A stretch of 7,248 nt of DNA, taken from Actinomycetes bacterium (GTDB lineage: Bacteria > Actinomycetota > Thermoleophilia > RBG-16-64-13). Location of the stretch: contig JAKAHF010000098.1 in the NCBI GenBank assembly GCA_021815245.1, positions 1 to 7,248 on the forward strand, read 5' to 3'. The position numbers were made by a program, and so were the translations under genes. The first letter of the stretch is position 1, and every line of letters starts with the position of its first letter. Positions 1-7,248 of this stretch are shown piece after piece. Below the pieces are notes generated by a model. The model was not told where the DNA came from, searched no databases, and saw nothing but the letters and a program-made list of their open reading frames with translations.

Positions 1-1
1 A

Positions 2-166
2 GTCAACAGCGCGAAAGCGGCCCTTGATGCCGGAGCCAAGGATGCTGCCGCGGTGCTCGCTGCGGTCGCGCTTGAGGACACCCTCAAGCGGTTCGCCGAG
101 GCCAAGGGGCTCGAGGTAGAAGACGGTGCGAACCAGGACCGCTGCCGGTTGACAAGTGTCACGTGA
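2..166 (+). CDS. C-terminal part of a HEPN-like hypothetical protein (partial, probably truncated)
   Basis: An open frame enters from the left edge and reads 54 codons to a TGA at 164-166. The part AGAKDAAAVLAAVALEDTLK followed by RFAEAKGLEVED resembles a helix pair found in HEPN-like proteins, in which an AA(A)VLAG..LE..LR.L helix is followed by a short Gly-Ile/Leu turn. In such proteins a further helical region with an R-N-x-x-x-H type motif normally follows. Here the frame instead runs into an unrelated tail (NQDRCRLTSVT) and stops, so the gene looks truncated at its 3' end. The tail is encoded by a small imperfect hairpin that may be an attC remnant. Family assignment is from pattern memory only. 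It could equally be an unrelated alanine-rich helical protein. Confidence 0.4.
   Translation, partial: VNSAKAALDAGAKDAAAVLAAVALEDTLKRFAEAKGLEVEDGANQDRCRLTSVT
121..154 (+). other. Possible degenerate attC right end ahead of the higBA cassette
   Basis: CGGTGCG at 124-130 pairs with CGCTGCCG at 140-147 (one wobble, one bulged base, 9-nt loop), followed by GTTGACA at 148-154. That heptamer fits GTTRRRY in five of seven positions and resembles the GTTGATA at the end of the site at 3621-3682. The position, directly before the first complete cassette, is where an attC end is expected. However, the stem is short and the left R'' box is not clear. If real, the recombination point G^TT lies at the -35 box of the higBA promoter. 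Confidence 0.3.
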
Positions 167-177
167 CCGGTTACATT
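149..177 (+). promoter_or_regulatory. higBA promoter with palindromic operator between -35 and -10
   Basis: A perfect -35 box TTGACA (149-154) is followed after exactly 17 bp by TACATT (172-177, four of six matches to TATAAT). The spacer holds a perfect 10-bp palindrome GTCACGTGAC (158-167), and CCGGTT occurs at 145-150 and 167-172. The predicted start of transcription is at about 184-185, on or next to the GTG start codon of the toxin gene at 185, so the transcript would be leaderless. The palindrome is in the right place for repression by the HigA antitoxin or the HigBA complex; that role is inferred from how this family is normally regulated. Confidence 0.65.
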
Positions 178-184
178 ACCAGCC

Positions 185-466
185 GTGGTCAAGTCCTTCG
201 CCGACGCGCAGACGCAGTCTCTGTTTGAGACGGGCACGTCTCGCCGTCTGCCGCCGGAGATCGTCAGGCGGGCGTTGCGAAAGCTCGAGTACGTCGATCT
301 CGCAACGTCACTTGATGACTTGGGTGCATCGCCGGGCAATCGCTTGCATGCACTCGAGGGAGATCGCAAGGGCCAGTACTCGATCTCGGTCACCGACCAA
401 TGGCGCATCTGCTTCGTGTTTGCCGACGGCGATGCCTACGACGTGGAAATCACCGACTACCACTGA
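185..466 (+). CDS. higB: HigB-like toxin, RelE/ParE superfamily (plasmid maintenance killer)
   Basis: This 93-aa protein matches the HigB/'killer' toxin family over its whole length: SFAD near the N-terminus, RRLPPEI..RALRKL, then SLDDL..PGNRLHALEGDRKGQ and the C-terminal DQWRICF...DGDAYDVEITDYH. Members are ribosome-dependent mRNA interferases that cut mRNA in the A site. R74 and the terminal Y92-H93 lie where catalytic residues sit in characterised HigB proteins. The start is GTG at 185, which gives the usual family length and N-terminus. There is no Shine-Dalgarno sequence before it, but a promoter lies just upstream, fitting a leaderless mRNA. The toxin gene precedes the antitoxin gene by 16 bp, the normal higBA order. 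As an integron cassette it would act as an array stabiliser, because loss of the pair would leave the longer-lived toxin free. Identification is secure; activity is inferred. Confidence 0.93.
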   Translation: MVKSFADAQTQSLFETGTSRRLPPEIVRRALRKLEYVDLATSLDDLGASPGNRLHALEGDRKGQYSISVTDQWRICFVFADGDAYDVEITDYH

Positions 467-482
467 TATCGAGGTGAGCTAG

Positions 483-797
483 ATGAGCATTCCCAACACC
501 GGCAAGCGGTTGATCCGCCCCACGCATCCCGGTGAGATGCTACGTGAGGACTTCCTGCCCGACTACGGGCTTAATGTCGCCGGCCTTGCTGCGGCGCTAG
601 GTGTCTCCCGTCAGACAATCAACGAGCTCCTGCGCGAGCGTCGTGCCCTCAGTCCGGAAATGGCCCTACGTCTGGCGCGGCTGTTCGGCAATAGCCCCGA
701 GTTCTGGCTGAACGCGCAACGCGCCGTCGATCTCTGGGACGCGCAGGAGGCGATCGGCACGAAGGTCGAGCGCATTAAGCCGCTGAAGGTCGCGTAA
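483..797 (+). CDS. higA: HigA-like antitoxin, XRE-family HTH regulator
   Basis: This 104-aa protein opens with the typical HigA segment PTHPGEMLREDFLPDYGLN. A helix-turn-helix follows at about residues 30-60 (AGLAAALGVSRQTINELL, RERRALSPEMALRLARLFG), and then the family hallmark SPEFWLNAQRAVDLWDA. It neutralises HigB by direct binding and represses the operon promoter. The ATG at 483 has a good ribosome binding site, GAGGTGAG, at 471-478. The palindrome at 158-167 is its likely operator. The TAA stop codon lies inside the R'' box (GCGTAAC) of the following attC site, so the cassette is packed with no spare sequence. A related but different HigA tail recurs at about 2970-3047. Confidence 0.94.
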   Translation: MSIPNTGKRLIRPTHPGEMLREDFLPDYGLNVAGLAAALGVSRQTINELLRERRALSPEMALRLARLFGNSPEFWLNAQRAVDLWDAQEAIGTKVERIKPLKVA

Positions 798-851
798 CAA
801 GCACTTCGAGCCGACCAGCTTCGCCGGCGGCTCAACTGCTGGACGTTAGAC
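792..851 (+). other. attC recombination site 1 (end of the higBA cassette)
   Basis: This 60-bp imperfect inverted repeat has R'' GCGTAAC (792-798) and R' GTTAGAC (845-851, a full GTTRRRY match). The left arm AGCACTTCGAGCC pairs with the right arm GGCTCAACTGCT, with unpaired or mismatched bases as in extrahelical positions of attC. The terminal loop region holds CAGCTTCGCCGG. Length, asymmetric stem, box sequences and position at the stop codon of higA all agree with an attC site whose bottom strand would be recombined by an IntI integrase. Confidence 0.75.
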
Positions 852-874
852 CAAACCGCACAGAGGGGGACCCG

Positions 875-1861
875 GTGAGACTGTGGCTTTCGTCGTTTCT
901 ATTGGCGGCTGTTGTCTGCTCCCTAGCGGTTTCCGGATGCGGCGCCACCGCAAACGTTGCGCCTCGCTCTACGCCTGTCGATGTCCACGTCGACGCGCTG
1001 CCCGCGGCGTCGGTGACTCTCGTGCGTGAGATTCCCAATGCCGGGATCTGTTCGGCCGTCGCATCGGGCCCACTGGTGGTGGAGAGCTTCGCTAGCGGTG
1101 AAGAGGGCGGCTTGCGGGTCTACAGCACTTGGGACTCGGATGATAGTTCCCGTCTTGCGGTTGGACTAGTCGCGGGGACGGGTTCGCCGTACACCGCGGC
1201 GGGTCCGGCGAACCCTTCGGCGTCGGCATCGGGTGTCTACTTCGATGCAGATGCGCGTCTCTACTTCCAGGGCTATGGTGACGATCAGGCGCGTGACCTT
1301 GGGATCAAGAATGTGTCGAGAGTCTGGGCCTCTCCCTCGGGAGAGTGCCTATTGGTGGAACAAGCCGGAACGAGCGGGCGTGGCTATGCCTATTCGTTCG
1401 TAGATCGGGTGACTTCTCTTCCCGAGATCGATTGGTCGCCCCGGGACGGGTCCGTGGGCGATGCGGTGTGGTTGTCGGACTCTCAGCTGATTGTTCAGGT
1501 AGACGACTCTCCACCAAACGGCGGGTGGGGAACTGTCTACTCTCTGCAGTTGGCCGGTGCATCCGTTCGCGAGGCAATAGCCGCGTCGGTCCCGATGTCA
1601 TGCCCTGCCCCGAACCCTTCCGGTGACATTTGGGCACACGTCTATGATGGAGGTCTGGCCTTCTCGAAACAGGGCCACCCCGAGCGAATGCTGTTGTGGA
1701 GGGCGGCCGAATGGGGTTTGGATGCATGGTGCTCCGGGGAGCTGGTATGGCTCGACGCGAAACATATCGCCATCGCGGTGACGGACTCCAGGAGCCATAC
1801 GACCGGTCTTTGGATCGTCGAGTGTACCGAGGCGTTGCGAAGGGTCGAAGCCGACAGCTAG
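875..1861 (+). CDS. Secreted lipoprotein of unknown function, possibly beta-propeller-like
   Basis: This 328-aa product begins with a lipoprotein signal: R2, a hydrophobic stretch to about residue 18, and lipobox V19-S20-G21-C22. It should be cleaved before C22 and anchored to the outer face of the cytoplasmic membrane. The mature part is rich in short Gly/Ser/Asp turns between predicted strands (for example VWASPSGECLLVE, VWLSDSQLIVQVDD, NPSGDIWAHVYDGG, VWLDAKHIAIAVTDS). This pattern recalls TolB/WD40-type propellers that report values with 'PSG'/'SDS' turns, but no family was recognised. The GTG start at 875 is preceded by GAGGGGGA (863-870) and lies 24 nt after the R' box of attC 1, normal for a cassette gene. 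The frame ends just before attC 2. No promoter is visible, so expression probably depends on upstream or integron transcription. Confidence 0.85.
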   Translation: MRLWLSSFLLAAVVCSLAVSGCGATANVAPRSTPVDVHVDALPAASVTLVREIPNAGICSAVASGPLVVESFASGEEGGLRVYSTWDSDDSSRLAVGLVAGTGSPYTAAGPANPSASASGVYFDADARLYFQGYGDDQARDLGIKNVSRVWASPSGECLLVEQAGTSGRGYAYSFVDRVTSLPEIDWSPRDGSVGDAVWLSDSQLIVQVDDSPPNGGWGTVYSLQLAGASVREAIAASVPMSCPAPNPSGDIWAHVYDGGLAFSKQGHPERMLLWRAAEWGLDAWCSGELVWLDAKHIAIAVTDSRSHTTGLWIVECTEALRRVEADS

Positions 1862-1871
1862 GTTGGGCGGT

Positions 1872-1930
1872 TCCTGACCGCCGGCGCAGCCAGACGGCAC
1901 AGTCGCCGCTGACCGGCCGAGCCGTTAGCG
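1872..1930 (+). other. attC recombination site 2 (end of the 328-aa lipoprotein cassette)
   Basis: This site is about 59 bp long. R'' is TCCTGAC (1872-1878) and R' is GTTAGCG (1924-1930, one mismatch to GTTRRRY). The left arm GCCGGCGCAGCCAGAC can pair with the right arm GTCGCCGCTGACCGGC with several unpaired bases. The right-arm sequence CCGCTGACCGGCCGAG is nearly the same as in the sites ending at 2321 and 3102, which argues that it is one of a family rather than a chance hairpin. Confidence 0.65.
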
Positions 1931-2001
1931 TTACAGGCGTGCCGCAGAGTTCTGGGGGGAAGTCGATTGTTGAGGCACATCCGACGACTGAGGGGGTTGA
2001 T

Positions 2002-2319
2002 GTGAGCGCCAAACGGGCCGTTCTCATGCTGACAATCATGCTCGCGGCGCTAGTCTGCATATCGGTTCTCGCAGCGTGTGGTTCCGCGTCGGAGGCTGCC
2101 GAGAGCGTCTCAACGACCGTCCCCATATCCGGAGAGGACGCCGCCATAATGGCTCAGATCGAAAGGATCCTTGCAGGGATCAAGGACGGTAGCGTCGTCG
2201 TCCGAGGAGGGATGCTCCAGGACGAGGAGCTGCCCACCGACATCGATGAGTTCCTGGACATGATCGGGTACTCAAGTTCCGACTCGGGCAGAGCCGCCGC
2301 TGACCGGTTGAGGTGCTAG
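2002..2319 (+). CDS. Small lipoprotein of unknown function whose end is encoded by an attC arm
   Basis: This 105-aa protein starts at GTG 2002, chosen because GAGGGGG (1990-1996) sits 5 nt upstream and the signal peptide begins here. The frame is open further upstream, but that part overlaps attC 2. The signal has basic residues K4-R5, a hydrophobic core and lipobox L23-A24-A25-C26. The mature chain has a Ser/Thr-rich linker, a predicted helix (SGEDAAIMAQIERILAGIKD) and an acidic segment (QDEELPTDIDEFLDMIGY). The last residues (GRAAADRLRC) are encoded by the right arm of attC 3, so the native C-terminus may have been lost or the gene uses the attC for its stop. No family was recognised. The product should be anchored outside the membrane. 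Confidence 0.72.
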   Translation: MSAKRAVLMLTIMLAALVCISVLAACGSASEAAESVSTTVPISGEDAAIMAQIERILAGIKDGSVVVRGGMLQDEELPTDIDEFLDMIGYSSSDSGRAAADRLRC

Positions 2320-2321
2320 AT
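2277..2321 (+). other. attC recombination site 3, short and with an altered core
   Basis: The right arm CCGCTGACCGGTTGAGG is almost identical to those of sites 2 and 5, and a short left arm (CGGGCAGAG, 2285-2293) can pair with it. The R''-like box is TTCCGAC. The R' heptamer is GCTAGAT (2315-2321), so the normally invariant GTT triplet is GCT. The site is about 45 bp instead of about 60. It is best read as a degenerate attC, possibly inactive, between the 105-aa lipoprotein and the DMP19 cassette. Confidence 0.5.
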
Positions 2322-2333
2322 AGGAGGGAGACT

Positions 2334-2768
2334 GTGGACGAACCCTGGTGGATGGCAAGTTGGCATGCCCTGTGCGACAAGTGCTCGAGTCAGGGCTATG
2401 GTGCGCTGAGCGCGGACGAGAGGGTGTGGCTCAATACCCGCGAGTTGATTGACGACGCCGAGAATGGTGGCCTAATCAGCTACTTCGAGAACCCCAGCAT
2501 CGGCACGCTCCCAGACTGTTTGATCGCGCTGGAGACCTTGGCCGCCAGCGATGTGAAGCAGCAGGTTGAGCGGGTGACCGCGTTGTTTCCCGGCGGCGTG
2601 CCCCTGTCAGAGGACGAGCGCAACGAGGTCATCGACTCGTGGGATGATGACGAGACTGACGAGCTGCTCGAAGATGTGGACGAGAGGCTCTTCGTGCTCT
2701 TCGAGGAACTCGAGGAGACGTTGGAGCTGTACATCCGGAACCGAGGACTCGCTCCAGCCTCTGCGTGA
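2334..2768 (+). CDS. DMP19/DUF4375 family protein
   Basis: This 144-aa acidic protein matches the DMP19 (DUF4375) family. It has an N-terminal LSADERVWLNTRELIDDAENGG, then GLISYFENPS (the family's NGGF.QYF.N motif), an alanine/leucine helix (DCLIALETLAASDVKQQVER), FPGGVPLSEDERNE, and LLEDVDERLF..FEELEETLELYIRN at the end. The Neisseria member DMP19 is reported as a DNA mimic that binds the repressor NHTF through an acidic surface. This protein is likewise strongly acidic (for example DSWDDDETDELLEDVDE), but its partner is unknown. GTG at 2334 is chosen over GTG 2313 because AGGAGGGAG (2322-2330) precedes it and the upstream GTG would lie within attC 3. The TGA stop falls inside the GCGTGAC R'' box of attC 4. 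Confidence 0.85.
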   Translation: MDEPWWMASWHALCDKCSSQGYGALSADERVWLNTRELIDDAENGGLISYFENPSIGTLPDCLIALETLAASDVKQQVERVTALFPGGVPLSEDERNEVIDSWDDDETDELLEDVDERLFVLFEELEETLELYIRNRGLAPASA

Positions 2769-2822
2769 CAGGCGGTTCGAGCAGACGCGTTTCGCGTGCG
2801 GCTCATCTGCCGGGAGTTGGCC
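2763..2822 (+). other. attC recombination site 4 (end of the DMP19 cassette)
   Basis: This 60-bp site has R'' GCGTGAC (2763-2769, containing the stop codon of the DMP19 gene) and R' GTTGGCC (2816-2822, one mismatch). The left arm GGCGGTTCGAGCAGACGCG pairs imperfectly with the right arm CGCGTGCGGCTCATCTGCC, with a short TTT-containing loop. The TTCGAGC segment is shared with attC 1, so this site belongs to the same subtype as that one. Confidence 0.7.
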
Positions 2823-2834
2823 TGAATCGAGGGA

Positions 2835-3047
2835 ATGAGAGTGCATCTTCCTGAGCGCATTGAATGCTCCCGCCTCGTGCTTCGGCGTCCCCGGCTCGAC
2901 GACGCCACCGCCATCTTCGCAGGTTGGGCGGCAGATCCCATCGCGACCCGGTACATGATGTGGCGCCGGCGCGCGGTCGACCTGTGGGACGCCCAGACGA
3001 TCCTCAAGGAAGACATGCAGCGCATCAAACCGTTGCGTGTCGCGTGA
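2835..3047 (+). pseudogene. Chimeric ORF: GNAT acetyltransferase N-terminus fused to HigA C-terminus
   Basis: This 70-aa ORF is made of two unrelated pieces. Residues 1-43 match the start of RimJ/RimL-type GNAT N-acetyltransferases: RIECSRLVLRRPRLDDATAI, then FAGWAADPIATRYMMW. Everything after that beta-alpha-alpha beginning is missing, including the acetyl-CoA-binding loop, so no acetyltransferase activity is expected. From about residue 46 the sequence is a HigA antitoxin tail: RAVDLWDAQ...RIKPLRVA, with 16 of 25 residues the same as the tail of the complete HigA in this window. Because it differs from that copy, it comes from another higA. The junction lies at about 2961-2970, in a GGCGCCGGCGCGC run. 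The TGA stop is inside the R'' box of attC 5, as in the true higA cassette. The ATG at 2835 has only GAGGGA immediately before it. It is probably a non-functional remnant, although the frame is intact. Confidence 0.8.
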
Positions 3048-3102
3048 CAGGCCGGTGCAGCGGACAGCCTTCGGCTGCCGCTGACCGGCTGAGGCGTTGG
3101 GC
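3042..3102 (+). other. attC recombination site 5 (end of the GNAT-HigA remnant cassette)
   Basis: This is the best-formed site in the window, 61 bp. R'' is GCGTGAC (3042-3048) and R' is GTTGGGC (3096-3102, a full GTTRRRY match). The left arm CCGGTGCAGCGGACAGCC pairs with the right arm GGCTGCCGCTGACCGG. Two left-arm bases have no partner (the G after CCGGT and the A after CAGCGG), as extrahelical bases do in attC. The loop is only TT-C-like between CC and GG. Confidence 0.8.
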
Positions 3103-3146
3103 AGAGCGGCCCGATGTGTACCGCTTAGTAGGGAGGAACGCGTAGA

Positions 3147-3575
3147 ATGGAGACGCTCGGCATCATGCTGTCGATGTTCGCGGCCTTCGCCGGGGTCTCG
3201 GTCTACTCTGTTCTTCTGAACAGGCTGGTGGCGCCGCGGCACTTGCTGCGCCGTGCCGTCTTGGCGGTCTCGATCGCCGTTCTTGGTGCCTTCTTCCTGG
3301 AAGTCGTGCTCGTGACGACTCTGGGTGCTGTTGCCAGTCGCGCGCTTCTCGGTCCGAGCTTCACCGTCGCCCACGTGGTCTTGTTCTTGGGAGCTATCCC
3401 GGCTCTGGCAGGGGTTCTCACGCTGGCGACCCCCCGGGGATTCGGCGAGGAGTGGTCCGTCGTAGCCGCCATCTGCGCGGTGTGCGCACCTGGCGTTGTC
3501 CTCATGCAGTACGGGGTCAGCGAGGCGCTCTTCGGCATTGATGGCTCGGGTGGTCCGTTTCCGGGTCCATGGTGA
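3147..3575 (+). CDS. Small four-helix integral membrane protein of unknown function
   Basis: This 142-aa protein has about four predicted membrane helices: residues 4-26, 36-62, 72-94 and 102-124. Basic residues lie between the first two (RHLLRR), and the C-terminal tail is Gly/Pro-rich (GIDGSGGPFPGPW). The ATG at 3147 follows GGGAGGA (3131-3137) at a suitable distance and lies 45 nt after the R' box of attC 5. No family was recognised and no catalytic motif is seen. It is a typical hydrophobic cassette protein; its role is unknown. Both neighbouring intervals end in attC-like repeats, supporting its status as one cassette. Confidence 0.8.
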   Translation: METLGIMLSMFAAFAGVSVYSVLLNRLVAPRHLLRRAVLAVSIAVLGAFFLEVVLVTTLGAVASRALLGPSFTVAHVVLFLGAIPALAGVLTLATPRGFGEEWSVVAAICAVCAPGVVLMQYGVSEALFGIDGSGGPFPGPW

Positions 3576-3620
3576 TGATCCCAGTCGACGTGCGTAGCGG
3601 GCGCCTGCAGACGACATCCT

Positions 3621-3682
3621 GCGTTGTCAAAGCATGGCGTACCATGGACAACGGACGCGGCTGACGCGCTGAATCGTTGATA
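3621..3682 (+). other. attC-like site 6 (end of the membrane-protein cassette)
   Basis: The spacing (62 bp) matches the other sites. The right arm GCGGCTGACGCGCTGAATC leads into GTTGATA (3676-3682, one mismatch to GTTRRRY) and echoes the GCTGACCGG-TGAG arm of sites 2 and 5. On the left, GCGTTGTCAAAGC resembles GCGTAACAAGC of site 1. Pairing of AGC, GCGT and CC blocks with the right arm is possible but interrupted. It is less certain than sites 1, 4 and 5. Confidence 0.5.
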
Positions 3683-4170
3683 TGAGATAGCCGGTCAACC
3701 CCACCCCCGTCAAGGCGATCTGCAGGGGTGTGAAAGTGCAAGCGGACGGGCACATGGGATCGGCGCTCGACCATGCTGATATCCGCGGATTGGAACCGCA
3801 CATCTCGGTCCTGCCGGAGCCTGCCTCCCACTAGGCACGCGCATGCTTTCGTCGCATAACGACTTCGAGGATCTCTCCGGGTTGTGTCGCCCGCCCGCGT
3901 GCATGCTGGTTCTCCTATGTCGCCATGCTCCCGGTCATCGCACCCCAGACGAATCCCGAGAGCTCGCGGGCCACGGCGACCACCGACGGCGTGGTGCCTG
4001 GCTGTCTGCGGTTGCAGCATGCCATTCGTGGCGTGCGTCCGGGGGGGCGTTCGAGCGTGGTCCCTGACAGCCTGGAAACGGAACGTCATCCAGTGTCGTC
4101 CAACGAGCCAGCGCAGCCGGACAGCCGGGGCCGCCGCCGGATGACACGTCTTGCTGAAGGGGGAACTACG
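3683..4170 (+). other. ORF-poor 490-bp stretch after the last clear attC
   Basis: I see no convincing protein gene here on either strand. Open frames on both strands are arginine-, proline- and histidine-rich, as expected for GC-rich noncoding DNA. One short frame, GTG 3730 to TAG 3834 (34 codons, including GSALDHADIRGLEPHISVLP), has normal-looking composition but no clear ribosome binding site. At 4098-4104 there is GTCCAAC, followed by AGCCAGCGCAGCCGGACAGCC-like sequence close to the left arm of attC 5, but the right half is not attC-like. GTCATCC (4085-4091) and GGATGAC (4139-4145) form a 61-bp outer inverted repeat around it. The stretch may be a decayed cassette, an ORF-less cassette or a leader region. 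Confidence 0.4.
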
Positions 4171-4470
4171 ATGAAGCGTGTCGGAATGCTTGCCGCAATC
4201 ATGGCGTTCCTGATCTTGGCTGCAGGTGGTTGCGCAAGAATTCCCAGCCAGCAGCCCATTTCGATCGCCATCCAAGGCGATCCGGTGGTTGTGGCCCAAG
4301 TCGCTCAGATCCTGGAAGAGAATCCGAACATCGTTGCTCCTGACACACAGATCGAATACTCCATAGCTGTAGTCAAACCCGACCCCAGTGTTGACTACAA
4401 GATCATGAAGGTAGCTCCCGACCCAAACGTTGAATACAAGATCAGTGTTTGGCGACGCTGTTGGGGATGA
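4171..4470 (+). CDS. Small repeat-containing lipoprotein of unknown function
   Basis: This 99-aa protein starts at ATG 4171, with GAAGGGGGA at 4156-4164 upstream. It has a lipoprotein signal with K2-R3, a hydrophobic core and C21 in LAAGGC. The mature part has a segment ISIAIQGDPVVVAQVAQIL, then tandem repeats with a 13-residue period: V(A/K)PD at 55, 68 and 81, and Y at 63, 76 and 89. The unit is roughly Y-K-I-x-x-V-x-P-D-P-x-V-D/E. The repeats stop in mid-unit after YKISV and are followed by an unrelated WRRCWG and a stop, so the 3' end may be truncated or frameshifted. No family was recognised. It would be exposed on the outer face of the cell membrane. By eye it is less GC-rich than its neighbours. 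Confidence 0.78.
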   Translation: MKRVGMLAAIMAFLILAAGGCARIPSQQPISIAIQGDPVVVAQVAQILEENPNIVAPDTQIEYSIAVVKPDPSVDYKIMKVAPDPNVEYKISVWRRCWG

Positions 4471-4557
4471 ACTACGGCAAGGGGAATAGAACGAGAGGAA
4501 GTGCGCCACAGGAGCGAGTCTTCTGCGACCGCCGGCCGAGCCCTGAAACTCCTCGCA

Positions 4558-4602
4558 TTTTGTCCGGGTGATATTGACACAGGGTTTTGTCCGGGTGATA
4601 AT
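4558..4602 (+). promoter_or_regulatory. Strong promoter overlapped by two direct repeats, upstream of the DUF2239 gene
   Basis: TTGACA (4574-4579, perfect -35) is followed after 17 bp by GATAAT (4597-4602, five of six). The 16-bp sequence TTTTGTCCGGGTGATA occurs exactly twice, at 4558-4573 and 4585-4600, with a period of 27 bp. The first copy abuts the -35 box and the second covers the spacer and most of the -10 box. A protein binding both copies would block RNA polymerase. Transcription should begin near 4609, leaving a leader of about 25 nt before the ATG at 4634. Confidence 0.75.
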
Positions 4603-4633
4603 CTTCGTCGTAACCCCGTGATGAGGAGTTGTC

Positions 4634-5197
4634 ATGCATCAGCACTCACGTACCGTCTTCGTTGGCTCTCAGGCAGTTGCGACAGGCACGCACGAGGAGG
4701 TCGTCGCCACCCTTCGCGACCTGGAGTCCAAAGGCGAGGCGCGATCGGTCCTCGTGTTCGACGACGTCACCGGAGAGCAGATCGACGTCGATGTGCGGGC
4801 GAGCCGACCCGCGTCCGCGCCCGAGCCCGCGCCCGAGTCTGAGCCCCGACGCCCGGGACGCCCGAAGCTCGGCGTGGTGGCACGAGAAGTCACGCTGCTT
4901 CCGCGACATTGGGAGTGGCTGAGCGCCCAACCCGGTGGCGCGTCTGTCGCCCTGCGCAAGCTCGTCGAGACCGCCCGCCGCGAGAACGCCCAGAGCGACA
5001 CCACGAGGCGGGCCCAGGAGGGGGCCGTCCGCTTCATGACCGCCATGGCCGGAAACGAGCCGGGGTTCGAGGAGGCATGCCGGGCGCTGTTCGCGGGCGA
5101 CCGCGACACGTTCCGATCGCAGATCGCCCGGTGGCCCAAAGACGTCGCCGACTACTCCGACCGGCTGGCGGCCGAGGCCTTCAGCGTGGCGGAGTAG
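4634..5197 (+). CDS. DUF2239 family protein, possible autoregulator
   Basis: This 187-aa protein matches DUF2239 along its length. It has an N-terminal beta/alpha domain (TVFVGSQAVATGTHEEVVAT, then LVFDDVTGEQIDVDVR), an Ala/Pro/Glu linker at about residues 60-74, and the family core GRPKLGVVAREVTLLPRHWE followed by WLSAQPGGASVALRKLVETA. The C-terminus is a helical domain (RFMTAMAGNEPGFEEACRAL, FAGDRDTFRSQIARWPKDV). The core looks like a beta-helix-helix unit of ribbon-helix-helix type behind a GRPK-like basic patch, which would suit DNA binding; that is inference. The start has TGAGGAG (4622-4628) at good spacing. It is the first gene of a likely two-gene operon, and the direct repeats over its promoter could be its own operators. 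The family's function is not established as far as I know. Confidence 0.85.
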   Translation: MHQHSRTVFVGSQAVATGTHEEVVATLRDLESKGEARSVLVFDDVTGEQIDVDVRASRPASAPEPAPESEPRRPGRPKLGVVAREVTLLPRHWEWLSAQPGGASVALRKLVETARRENAQSDTTRRAQEGAVRFMTAMAGNEPGFEEACRALFAGDRDTFRSQIARWPKDVADYSDRLAAEAFSVAE

Positions 5198-5210
5198 GAG
5201 CGCGCGCTCC
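5197..5210. repeat. Perfect 14-bp palindrome between the DUF2239 and DUF6544-like genes
   Basis: GGAGCGCGCGCTCC is a perfect palindrome beginning at the last base of the DUF2239 stop codon. An alternative pairing of GCGGAG (5189-5194) with CTCCGC (5207-5212) is also possible. No T-run follows, so it is not a standard terminator. It may be an mRNA-stabilising or attenuating hairpin within the operon. Confidence 0.45.
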
Positions 5211-5249
5211 GCTGAAACCCAAAATGTCAGACTCCTCGGGAGGGGATTC

Positions 5250-5999
5250 ATGTCCGACACGCCGTCGCTAGACGAACTCTGGGATTCTGTACCCACGGGC
5301 CAAGGGATCTTCGACCCCCTTGCGCTGACGAACTGTCCCCCCTCGGCAAGACGCTATCTCGAGCACGCCATCGAGCCGGGAACTCGGCTGGCGACGGCGG
5401 TCCGGCTCTCTATGAGCGGCGAGATCAAGCTGAACAAGTGGCTTCCCTTTGAAGCCGAGGAGGTCCTCATCCGCGACCGGGGGTTCGTTTGGTGCGCCAC
5501 CGTGAAGATGGGGGTTGTGCGGCTGAGGGGATTCGACCGTTTCGTCGACGGCGAGGGCCTCATGCGCTGGAAGCTGTTCGGGATCATCCCCGTCATGAGG
5601 TCATCGGGGCCCGATGTCTCCCGGTCGGCTGCCGGCCGGTTCGCCGCGGAGAGTGTCTGGCTCCCATCGGCGCTCATCCCGCACGTGGTCGAGCGGCCCG
5701 AGGGTAGACCCGGGGACCTCGGCGTCGCGCTGCCGGTTGCCGGTCAGCGTGTCGATGTGACGCTCTCGGCCGGACCCTCGGGCGACCTGCGGAGCCTGAG
5801 CCTGGAGCGCTGGGGGGAGCCTGGCACCGGGCAAGGCTACGGTCTGCGGAGCTTCGGAGGGTGGGTCGAGGATGAGCGGTCGTACGATGGCTATACGATC
5901 CCGACCAGACTCCGAGCCGGGTGGCACTTCAACAGCGACAGGTTCGAGTCGGAGGGTGAATTCTTCCGCTGCCGTATCGAGGCTGCCGCGTTCAAGTAG
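5250..5999 (+). CDS. DUF6544 (DUF6920)-like family protein
   Basis: This 249-aa protein matches, from memory, the family now called DUF6544/DUF6920. Features seen in order are RYLEHAIEPG near residue 31, LSMSGEIKLNKWLPFEAEEV, GFVWCATVKMG, DRFVDGEGLMRWKLFGIIPV, then the strongest block GPDVSRSAAGRFAAESVWLP (S/A-rich core) with SALIPH. These are followed by LERWGEP, RSFGGWVEDERSYDGYTIPT, and RAGWHFNSDRFESEGEFFRC close to the end. The function is unknown; the regular beta-rich pattern suggests a lipid- or ligand-binding fold. ATG 5250 is supported by GGGAGGGG at 5238-5245. The gap of 52 bp after DUF2239 and the absence of a promoter between them suggest co-transcription. Confidence 0.82.
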   Translation: MSDTPSLDELWDSVPTGQGIFDPLALTNCPPSARRYLEHAIEPGTRLATAVRLSMSGEIKLNKWLPFEAEEVLIRDRGFVWCATVKMGVVRLRGFDRFVDGEGLMRWKLFGIIPVMRSSGPDVSRSAAGRFAAESVWLPSALIPHVVERPEGRPGDLGVALPVAGQRVDVTLSAGPSGDLRSLSLERWGEPGTGQGYGLRSFGGWVEDERSYDGYTIPTRLRAGWHFNSDRFESEGEFFRCRIEAAAFK

Positions 6000-6000
6000 A

Positions 6001-6020
6001 GTTTCCGGGTCCGTGGAAAC
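6001..6020 (+). terminator. Weak hairpin after the DUF6544-like gene
   Basis: GTTTCC (6001-6006) and GGAAAC (6015-6020) form a 6-bp stem with an 8-nt loop directly after the stop codon. There is no U-tract, so termination would have to be Rho-assisted or incomplete. It could also only protect the 3' end of the message. Confidence 0.35.
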
Positions 6021-6056
6021 GGCCCACCGAGGGCGTGCTCGTGACGGCACATCGCG

Positions 6057-6067
6057 TATTCTAGAAT
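6057..6067 (+). promoter_or_regulatory. Possible -10 box within a palindrome upstream of the gene at 6111
   Basis: TATTCT (6057-6062) fits a -10 box in four of six positions. It overlaps a perfect 10-bp palindrome ATTCTAGAAT (6058-6067), the only AT-rich spot in this 110-bp interval. No good -35 box is seen 17 bp upstream. A start near 6069 would leave a leader of about 40 nt before the GTG at 6111, which has GGGGGGA just upstream. Confidence 0.3.
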
Positions 6068-6110
6068 CTGAGAGTCGCCGGGCAACGAGTGGCGCGAAGG
6101 GGGGATTCCT

Positions 6111-6449
6111 GTGAAAGAGAGCGCGATTGGGTCATCAGCTCCCACTGTGGTCTATGACGCGTACATCGACTACGCCAAGGAGCATGCCCTCGACGTGCCC
6201 ATGCCGCTCGCCGTGTCCATCTGCATGGACGTCGCGGCCGATCTTGGTCTCAGGCTGAAGTCTAAGTCCGACTCCACCCTCGTGTTTCGGGAGCGCTTGT
6301 TGTTGGGTGGCGCGTGGCTGACCACGTTCGGGCACTCTCCAGCACCTACCTCGCCGCTGTGGCGGAAGAGGCGCAGGCAGGTCTTCCGCGCATCCCTCCG
6401 CGCAAACCGACAGGACGGCGGCGGCTACTCCGCGCCTTGGCGCTCGTGA
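6111..6449 (+). CDS. 5' part of a probably frameshifted gene, unknown family
   Basis: The frame starts at GTG 6111 with AGGGGGGA about 6 nt upstream. The first 75 or so residues look like real protein: VVYDAYIDYAKEHALDVPMP, LAVSICMDVAADLGLRLKSK, and STLVFRERLLLGGAWLTTFG, an alpha-then-beta pattern. After that the frame becomes proline- and arginine-rich (PLWRKRRRQVFRASLRANRQ) and stops at 6449, which is typical of an out-of-frame tail. In the frame shifted by -1, a good amphipathic helix begins at the same place (SSTYLAAVAEEAQAG) and leads into three membrane helices. The simplest reading is a single gene 6111-6700 with an indel near 6320-6345. No family was recognised. It may also be two overlapping genes, or the frameshift may be a sequencing error. 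Confidence 0.6.
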   Translation: MKESAIGSSAPTVVYDAYIDYAKEHALDVPMPLAVSICMDVAADLGLRLKSKSDSTLVFRERLLLGGAWLTTFGHSPAPTSPLWRKRRRQVFRASLRANRQDGGGYSAPWRS

Positions 6450-6700
6450 ACTGGCTGCCCGTCGCCGTTCTGGTAGCATTCGCCGTCGGAGTCGTGGCGA
6501 TCATTGCGATGAATCAGGGCGGGCTCCATGCCCGAGCCCTCAGCCCCGTCGTCCCATCCCTGGCCGTGCTGATGGTGGTCAACTCGATCGGGCGCCGGCG
6601 GATCCTGGGGCTGTCGTGGCGGGAGTCGATCGCCGGAGCTCACGCGGTGATTGCGCTGGTCATCATCGCTCTCAACTTCGGGCTCACGTTCCTCGCCTAG
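6314..6700 (+). CDS. Membrane-spanning 3' part of the probably frameshifted gene
   Basis: This is a 128-residue frame if read from GTG 6314, which has no good ribosome binding site. It is more likely the continuation of the gene begun at 6111. It holds an amphipathic helix (YLAAVAEEAQAGLP), a basic stretch (RKPTGRRRLLR), then a membrane helix (LALVNWLPVAVLVAFAVGVV). Two more follow: SPVVPSLAVLMVVNSI and, after an RRRILGLSWRES loop, AVIALVIIALNFGLTFLA at the C-terminus. By the positive-inside rule the arginine-rich linker should be cytoplasmic. No family was recognised. It ends 37 bp before the stop codon of the convergent B3/4 gene. Confidence 0.68.
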   Translation: MADHVRALSSTYLAAVAEEAQAGLPRIPPRKPTGRRRLLRALALVNWLPVAVLVAFAVGVVAIIAMNQGGLHARALSPVVPSLAVLMVVNSIGRRRILGLSWRESIAGAHAVIALVIIALNFGLTFLA

Positions 6701-6717
6701 CCGGCCTGCTTGGCGGG

Positions 6718-6732
6718 CGTCGCTCTTCGACG
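6718..6732. terminator. Small hairpin between convergent genes
   Basis: CGTCG (6718-6722) and CGACG (6728-6732) form a 5-bp stem with a CTCTT loop in the 37-bp gap between two convergent stop codons. It is short and has no U-tract on either strand. It is noted because it is the only candidate bidirectional terminator here. Confidence 0.3.
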
Positions 6733-6737
6733 GCCTC

Positions 6738-7248
6738 CTACGGCGCCAACGAGATACGCGGATTGTCGGCCGTCAGATAGTCGATCCGGCTCGTGCCTCC
6801 GCAGAACCGCTTGATCAACTCGGCCACCTCGGCCGCGGCCTCTTCTACCTCCGACCGCGTGATCGGCGGCAGGCCGTCGACGTTGAACTCGATGGCGGTG
6901 GTCTCGGGCAGGGTCAGGGTGTGGTTGCCCTGGCGCCAGGTCCAGCGGCGGGTGAGCACCGTGTTGGTGCTGTTCTCGACGAAGATGACCTCGCCGGGGA
7001 GGGGATGCTCCAGCTCCTCCGAGCCGAAGGGCACGAAGTTCTCGTCACCGGTCGCGAAGCGCAGCTCGATGTCGCCCTGCAGCAAGTCGATGGCGTGGGC
7101 GCCGGCCGGCAGCATGTGGCGCAGCGACATGATGTTGCCCAGGTCGACGAGGGCGCTGATGGAGGGTAGCTCGTCGCCCCGTCCGGCGCGGCGGGCCATG
7201 GCCTCGATTGACGACCGGAATTCCGACGGCTTGGCCCCGAACGCCCGG
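6738..7248 (-). CDS. B3/4 (PheRS beta B3/B4-like) domain protein, 5' end missing
   Basis: The minus-strand frame runs in from the right edge and ends at a TAG at 6738-6740, giving 169 residues. It matches free-standing proteins with the B3/4 domain known from the beta subunit of phenylalanyl-tRNA synthetase. The matching features are RAFGAKPSEFRSSIEAMARR, LPSISALVDLGNIMSLRHML, AGAHAIDLLQGDIELRFATG, and GEVIFVENSTNTVLTRRWTW with RQGNHT and a C-terminal EVAELIKRFCGG. The ATG at 7197-7199 is internal, because homology continues upstream of it to the window edge. In PheRS this fold helps shape the editing site; what the stand-alone proteins do is unclear. This is an ordinary chromosomal gene, on the opposite strand to everything else here. 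Confidence 0.85.
   Translation of the reverse strand, partial: RAFGAKPSEFRSSIEAMARRAGRGDELPSISALVDLGNIMSLRHMLPAGAHAIDLLQGDIELRFATGDENFVPFGSEELEHPLPGEVIFVENSTNTVLTRRWTWRQGNHTLTLPETTAIEFNVDGLPPITRSEVEEAAAEVAELIKRFCGGTSRIDYLTADNPRISLAP

Follow-up and report, generated by a model that had tools for sequence, protein, structure and literature searches.

Clusters of attC sites lacking integrases are called CALIN in the terminology of IntegronFinder (PMC9024848), and in archaeal integrons the attI site is said to sit immediately downstream of intI (PMC9668308). Two reviews list Actinobacteriota among the phyla with integrons (PMC8618304, PMC10500605). In the accessible text of a 2022 survey of sequenced genomes Actinobacteria are without a complete integron (PMC9024848), and in that of a 2008 survey they are notably absent, with biology and sampling both left open as the cause (PMC2426708). 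An aquifer study of metagenome-assembled genomes (MAGs) counts 2697 integrons, most apparently from Pseudomonadota, the accessible part not mentioning Actinomycetota (PMC12259885); the main text of the archaeal-integron paper, as far as accessible, does not mention Actinobacteriota (PMC9668308). Beyond these papers, no description of complete integrons in Coriobacteriia, Thermoleophilia or Actinomycetota was found in the literature outside subscription papers and preprints. The DNA considered here (contig JAKAHF010000098.1, positions 1 to 7248; 7248 bases, 64% G+C; hereafter the window) carries at positions 185-3682, with a probability of roughly 0.9, a section of an integron gene-cassette array belonging to an uncultured actinomycetotal bacterium. 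As an integron cassette array the feature is confirmed to be real; its mechanism is already known, and the interest lies in its host distribution.

Three sites had been predicted to share a right arm, and CCGCTGACCGGYYGAG indeed occurs in three mismatch-free copies (at 1906, 2297 and 3078), all on the plus strand; with up to two mismatches allowed, none of 200 shuffled sequences had three copies. The search for this arm was taken to other genomes with the pattern GCTGACCGGYYGANNCGTTRG, to avoid circularity, and yielded 22 stretches in a scan of genome contigs (257 billion bases) and no match in viral contigs. Complete attC architecture was judged by eye to be present in six of the 22 stretches, and the other 16 were taken for chance. 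Covariance model R1 was built from six attC sites, one per MAG (Gaiellales AS06, Actinomycetota AS06, Actinobacteria RBG_16_64_13, Gemmatimonadetes, Actinomycetota AS10 and Coriobacteriia Zod) and none from the window; one of two pattern matches in locus L005, whose left arm was not clear, was left out. Model R2 was built from 62 matches in loci outside the window (30 loci searched), its source alignment A4 keeping one palindrome echo (L036:12299-12359, minus strand) and one 38-nt shortened site (L035:11110-11147). With filters off for R1, the sites in the window are as follows, where z refers to folding of the bottom strand relative to shuffled sequences:

792..851, plus strand: attC site 1 (R1 42.2 bits, E 2.8e-10; R2 44.5 bits; z -3.04)
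1872..1930, plus strand: attC site 2 (R1 32.8 bits, E 1.3e-7; R2 26.9 bits; z -1.00)
2297..2319, plus strand: right half of an attC site without left arm, an exact copy of the shared right arm
2763..2822, plus strand: attC site 3 (R1 20.7 bits, E 3.6e-4; R2 23.6 bits; both to 2821; z 0.14)
3042..3102, plus strand: attC site 4 (R1 70.8 bits, E 2e-18; R2 54.1 bits; z -4.31)
3592..3682, plus strand: attC site 5, the last confirmed of the array (R2 30.1 bits, E 1.7e-5, called as 3592-3681; z -1.05)

The original prediction, made from the sequence alone, is supported in substance: sites 1 to 4, whose coordinates it had given, were all recovered on the plus strand by both outside models (the third ending at 2821), and the single orientation it described holds for every site. 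Its estimate of five to seven units stands at five full sites; a sixth is present only as a half and a seventh was not found. The feature at 121-183, where the range it had given begins, is not an attC site, as neither model calls one there and the segment holds a sigma-70-like promoter (149-177); a candidate site at 115-185 was rejected on the same ground, this region being the higBA promoter. The half site at 2297-2319 was called by neither R1 nor R2, and its bottom strand folds no better than shuffled sequences (z 0.06). R1 gives 13.7 bits to 3601-3675, part of the fifth site, and beyond the sites and one palindrome echo its next match in the window reaches 9.5 bits; the echo, a minus-strand match at 3050-3088 (17.4 bits), was rejected as a separate site since it mirrors the palindrome 3042-3102. 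Seven of the 16 loci judged to be chance score 15-23 bits with R1, like site 3, because the search pattern is part of the model; these loci had been picked from 257 billion bases for carrying that part, and site 3 had not. R2 serves as an attC model beyond the window: of 33 loci surrounding IntI genes it recognised sites in 14, and 11 of these belong to the 27 loci taken from three phyla, those of the Gemmatimonadetes, Chloroflexi and Spirochaetes MAGs. An Rfam scan of the window gave two matches up to E 5, both far below gathering scores. A weak match at 4098-4155 (15.5 bits, E 0.028) was not counted, its fold being less stable than those of shuffled sequences (z 1.19); it may be a degenerate attC site.

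The order R'', L'', L', R' can be read directly at five places in the window. Sites 1 to 5 measure 60, 59, 60, 61 and 91 nt, inside the published attC range of 57-141 bp (PMC5371416), and successive site ends, the half site included, lie 1079, 389, 503, 280 and 580 bp apart. R' starts with GTT in all five sites, R'' ends in AAC in one, GAC in three and AGC in one, and R2 pairs R'' with R' in each. An L''/L' stem with extrahelical bases, an unpaired central spacer and a variable terminal structure are present in the R1 and R2 alignments. Among the 62 matches outside the window, 90.8% of the cells pair and 17 of 23 pairs change on both sides, in an alignment that was fitted to the structure and is favoured by this; none of 500 shuffles reached any of the five measures taken. 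The base bulged from the L'' arm (A4 column 20, top strand) is C in 33 of these matches, G in 28 and a gap in one, and in the window it is C in sites 1 and 3 and G in sites 2, 4 and 5. In classical attC sites one base is conserved as the L'' bulge. Folding of each bottom strand, proposed earlier as a check, gave a graded result: folded alone, sites 4 and 1 clearly exceed shuffled sequences in stability, sites 5 and 2 do so slightly, and site 3 does not.

The genes between the sites, all in the same direction, are listed below.

149..177, plus strand: higBA promoter TTGACA-17-TACATT, matching the consensus in 10 of 12 letters; a palindrome separates the two hexamers
185..466, plus strand: higB-like toxin gene, cassette 1 (Pfam HigB-like_toxin 62.6 bits, cut-off 27)
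483..797, plus strand: higA antitoxin gene, cassette 1 (NCBIfam antidote_HigA 107.1 bits, cut-off 47.7)
875..1861, plus strand: open reading frame (ORF) for a 328-aa protein with a lipoprotein-like start, cassette 2
2002..2319, plus strand: short ORF, lipoprotein-like in translation, unit 3
2313..2768, plus strand: DMP19-like protein, cassette 4 (Pfam DMP19 57.6 bits, cut-off 25)
2835..3047, plus strand: 70-aa chimeric ORF, cassette 5 (GNAT acetyltransferase start joined to a HigA tail)
3147..3575, plus strand: ORF for a 142-aa hydrophobic protein, cassette 6

A full unit comprises one gene, or the two genes of higBA, with an attC site behind it; by analogy with known integrons such cassettes would be cut, excised, captured and expressed. 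Several attC sites in one orientation with a gene or a pair between them were found, as had been proposed, with two exceptions, the half site at 2297-2319 that ends one unit and the chimera at 2835-3047; the promoter that had been noted at higBA is the one given above. The last codons and the stop of the ORF at 2002-2319 lie inside the right half site, and the DMP19-like ORF may start at a GTG at 2334. The chimeric ORF scores 22.2 bits with Pfam Acetyltransf_3, below the cut-off of 25.4, over the first 41 of 138 profile positions, and its HigA tail, which continues into attC site 4, is together with that site 68% identical over 125 nt to the corresponding part of cassette 1. Half site and chimera look like deletions that fused neighbours; they may represent decay, or fusions by illegitimate deletion. 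The 328-aa and 142-aa proteins gave no match in Pfam, NCBIfam or PADLOC, and among ten ORFs PADLOC returned a single weak match, to HigA. At the left edge an open frame (2-166) without NCBIfam or PADLOC match ends just before the higBA promoter region and may be a truncated gene.

The lineage of the host was read from a gene at the other end of the window, outside the array:

6738..7247, minus strand: B3/4-domain protein, cut by the window end; taxonomic marker (Pfam B3_4 77 bits)

This protein is 88% identical to its counterpart in genome G033 and 86% identical to those in G005 (AS10tlH2TH_230), G003 (RBG_16_64_13) and G062, all four in the class sample of genome G002, a class which we take to be Thermoleophilia. 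In that sample 18 of 149 genomes match the protein at E 1e-10; in the class sample of G006 the matches number 53 of 149, the best at 42% identity. A DUF2239 protein says less about the lineage (matches in 7 of 149, the best at 57%). These identities indicate that the host is an uncultured member of the Actinomycetota, the phylum that had been suggested for it. DNA similarity to the kin genomes stops where the B3/4 gene ends, at about 6738, and beyond this point the kin carry other genes, partly common among themselves; positions 1-6737 are therefore accessory relative to these kin. No attC site was found near their B3/4 gene, and on nine kin stretches (164 kb) R2 gave one match, a site adjoining integrase pieces in G003.

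When R2 was run on 18 whole genomes, with the 150 best candidates of each scored, matches were found in eight (G167, 27; G158, 10; G002 and G154, 7 each; G003 and G005, 5 each; G001, a MAG titled Gaiellales that is also in the G002 class sample, 4; G006, 3). They form one-strand clusters, save for single sites on G167:C1, G158:C8 and G003:C63. No attC match was obtained in the B3/4 relatives G033, G062, G051 and G016, nor in six genomes without an IntI match (G007, G009, G010, G153, G155 and G159). Second attC clusters lie far from the intI cluster in two genomes (G154:C1:383440-387341 and G167:C3:357935-360012).

Integron integrases were sought with family TIGR02249 (cut-off 265 bits). Of the six genomes with the true attC loci three pass, namely G002, G006 and, despite an inner stop, G004; in a fourth, G003, integron-integrase pieces from a gene interrupted by runs of N adjoin attC. 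The six genomes reached through chance loci gave none, and the control genomes gave 0 of 14 each time. By sample, passes number 11 of 149 in the class of G002, 46 of 149 in the class of G006 and 16 of 396 in the phylum of G002 (a sample that overlaps both class samples), compared with 28 of 81 in the phylum of the Gemmatimonadetes MAG, 12 of 151 in that of the Chloroflexi MAG and 7 of 120 in that of the Spirochaetes MAG; a few passing actinomycetotal genes have inner stops (G079, G220) or are partial. IntI and attC sites share a contig in 15 loci, 14 actinomycetotal and one from Gemmatimonadetes, and all 53 attC matches there lie on the intI strand and 3' of intI, the side being partly set by the region fetched (except in L035, L036, L037 and L038) and the strand not. 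Judged from locus coordinates, sites opposite to the intI strand occur in L094 (actinomycetotal phylum sample), L135 and L146. Where contigs continue, arrays follow intI, with 16 matches in G167 (182-kb contig), seven in G158 and three in G154, on a contig of 1.84 Mb in a genome of about 1.8 Mb, a length that speaks against a binning error. In L129, from the phylum of the Chloroflexi MAG, an attC-like match (2488-2559), by its coordinates within about 50 nt of the intI 5' end, could be a cassette site or belong to attI.

Identity to the IntI of G002 is 62-78% within the two actinomycetotal classes, 43-59% in the three other phyla, 58% for a cyanobacterial IntI and 51% for IntI1. In a quick tree of 78 rows, with 32 of 74 inner branches open and 11 of the 39 IntI rows of the G006 class thinned out, 40 actinomycetotal rows (28 and 10 from the two classes, two from the phylum sample) and five spirochaete rows form one branch with support 99; four other actinomycetotal rows group with Gemmatimonadota, one with Chloroflexota, and one stands next to IntI1. 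No row was obtained from reference L170, and two rows are one gene. The grouping thus suggests several arrivals and one broad radiation. Within the broad branch the two classes are mixed, and the integrase of G006 groups with integrases of the other class; genes may therefore have been exchanged between the classes, or the bin may be mixed.

Several observations weigh against an integron array. No IntI was found in the window, as had been noted before (tblastn of an IntI; best E 1.2 over 12 residues), so the visible part is an integrase-less attC cluster and is classed as an array or attC cluster, not a complete integron; an attI site and a cassette promoter would be expected next to intI, beyond the window. 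G005 has no IntI above the cut-off. G033 and G062, two of the four nearest genomes, have no attC match with R2, which shows that not every member of the lineage has the feature. A half site closes one unit, and the bottom strand of site 3 is no more stable than shuffled sequences, those of sites 2 and 5 only slightly more. The absent integrase speaks for an explanation to which slightly less than even odds are given, namely that this is a stranded cluster of the CALIN type, whose integrase has been lost from the genome and whose decaying row would be mobile only with IntI supplied in trans; this reading and that of an integron array part only beyond the ends of the window. Half site and chimera would fit such decay, as would the kin genome G005 and the more distant G001, whose attC clusters are accompanied by no more than weak, Xer-like matches to the IntI family. 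By contrast G003, equally close by its B3/4 protein, keeps integrase pieces beside attC, and all genomes are drafts; of the 12 contigs fetched, eight stop less than 4 kb from intI, so that absence of IntI from a draft says little.

An improbable alternative is that the cassette row is foreign and arrived recently from another phylum, or that the contig is chimeric; the array would then not belong to the actinomycetotal lineage. Site 4 has its best match in a Gemmatimonadetes MAG (87.5% over 56 nt), the outlying actinomycetotal IntIs group with Gemmatimonadota, Chloroflexota or IntI1, and 1-6737 is not common to the kin at this place; yet site 4 is also 86% and 85% identical to sites of G005 and G002, site 1 is 80% identical to a G005 site, site 5 matches a G003 site beside the integrase pieces (81%) and a G005 site (79%), and like sites are clustered in G001, G002, G003 and G005. 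That the sites are REP-like (repetitive extragenic palindromic) or transcription-terminating palindromes outside any integron is very improbable and contradicted by the data: they are imperfect palindromes at gene ends, but have conserved unpaired bases, AAC/GTT boxes and one orientation, stand beside IntI in the 15 loci, and in the eight positive genomes form clusters with three single sites, not the scatter in both orientations that the original prediction had named as a sign of such elements.

With the window read as part of an integron cassette array, the genome sequences indicate that integrons are regular residents of some uncultured Actinomycetota, and the frequencies of IntI in the three samples (46 of 149, 11 of 149 and 16 of 396) favour sampling as the cause of the reported absence. 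Probably the uncultured Actinomycetota have long been a major home of integrons, with IntI in about one in three of the species sampled from one class and in several percent of those from another, most sampled IntIs in one broad branch shared with only some spirochaetes, intI read toward the array, and a recognisable attC family. If so, the printed lack of complete integrons in the phylum reflects which genomes had been sequenced. If such arrays are active, a large Gram-positive phylum would have its own cassette pool, including toxin-antitoxin pairs and proteins of no known family, and the sites could be used directly in recombination assays.

In the right part of the window, a direct repeat of TTTTGTCCGGGTGATA (4558-4602; two copies, 27 bp apart) lies upstream of the DUF2239 gene and overlaps the best promoter-like site of a scan, TTGACA-17-GATAAT; it is possibly an operator. 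A 28-bp direct repeat at 4378-4444 (copies 86% identical, 39 bp apart) lies inside a small ORF with a lipoprotein-like start.

Compared with known systems, the window resembles a CALIN in having at least two attC sites without intI and differs in that its 7.2 kb do not establish loss of intI. It shares with archaeal integrons an origin in uncultured lineages, where, in the accessible text, most are CALIN; the host domain differs, and attC recombination was assayed there, whereas the sites of the window are known from sequence alone (PMC9668308). The two reviews name the phylum of the window but, in their accessible text, give no array, site or integrase (PMC8618304, PMC10500605). Like the sedentary chromosomal integrons of Vibrio and Xanthomonas, the window has attC-ended cassettes in one orientation, many of unknown function, and a toxin-antitoxin cassette; unlike them it has another host phylum, five full sites and no intI in view. 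In the classical layout intI is opposite in strand to the cassettes, whereas in the related actinomycetotal genomes it lies on the cassette strand.

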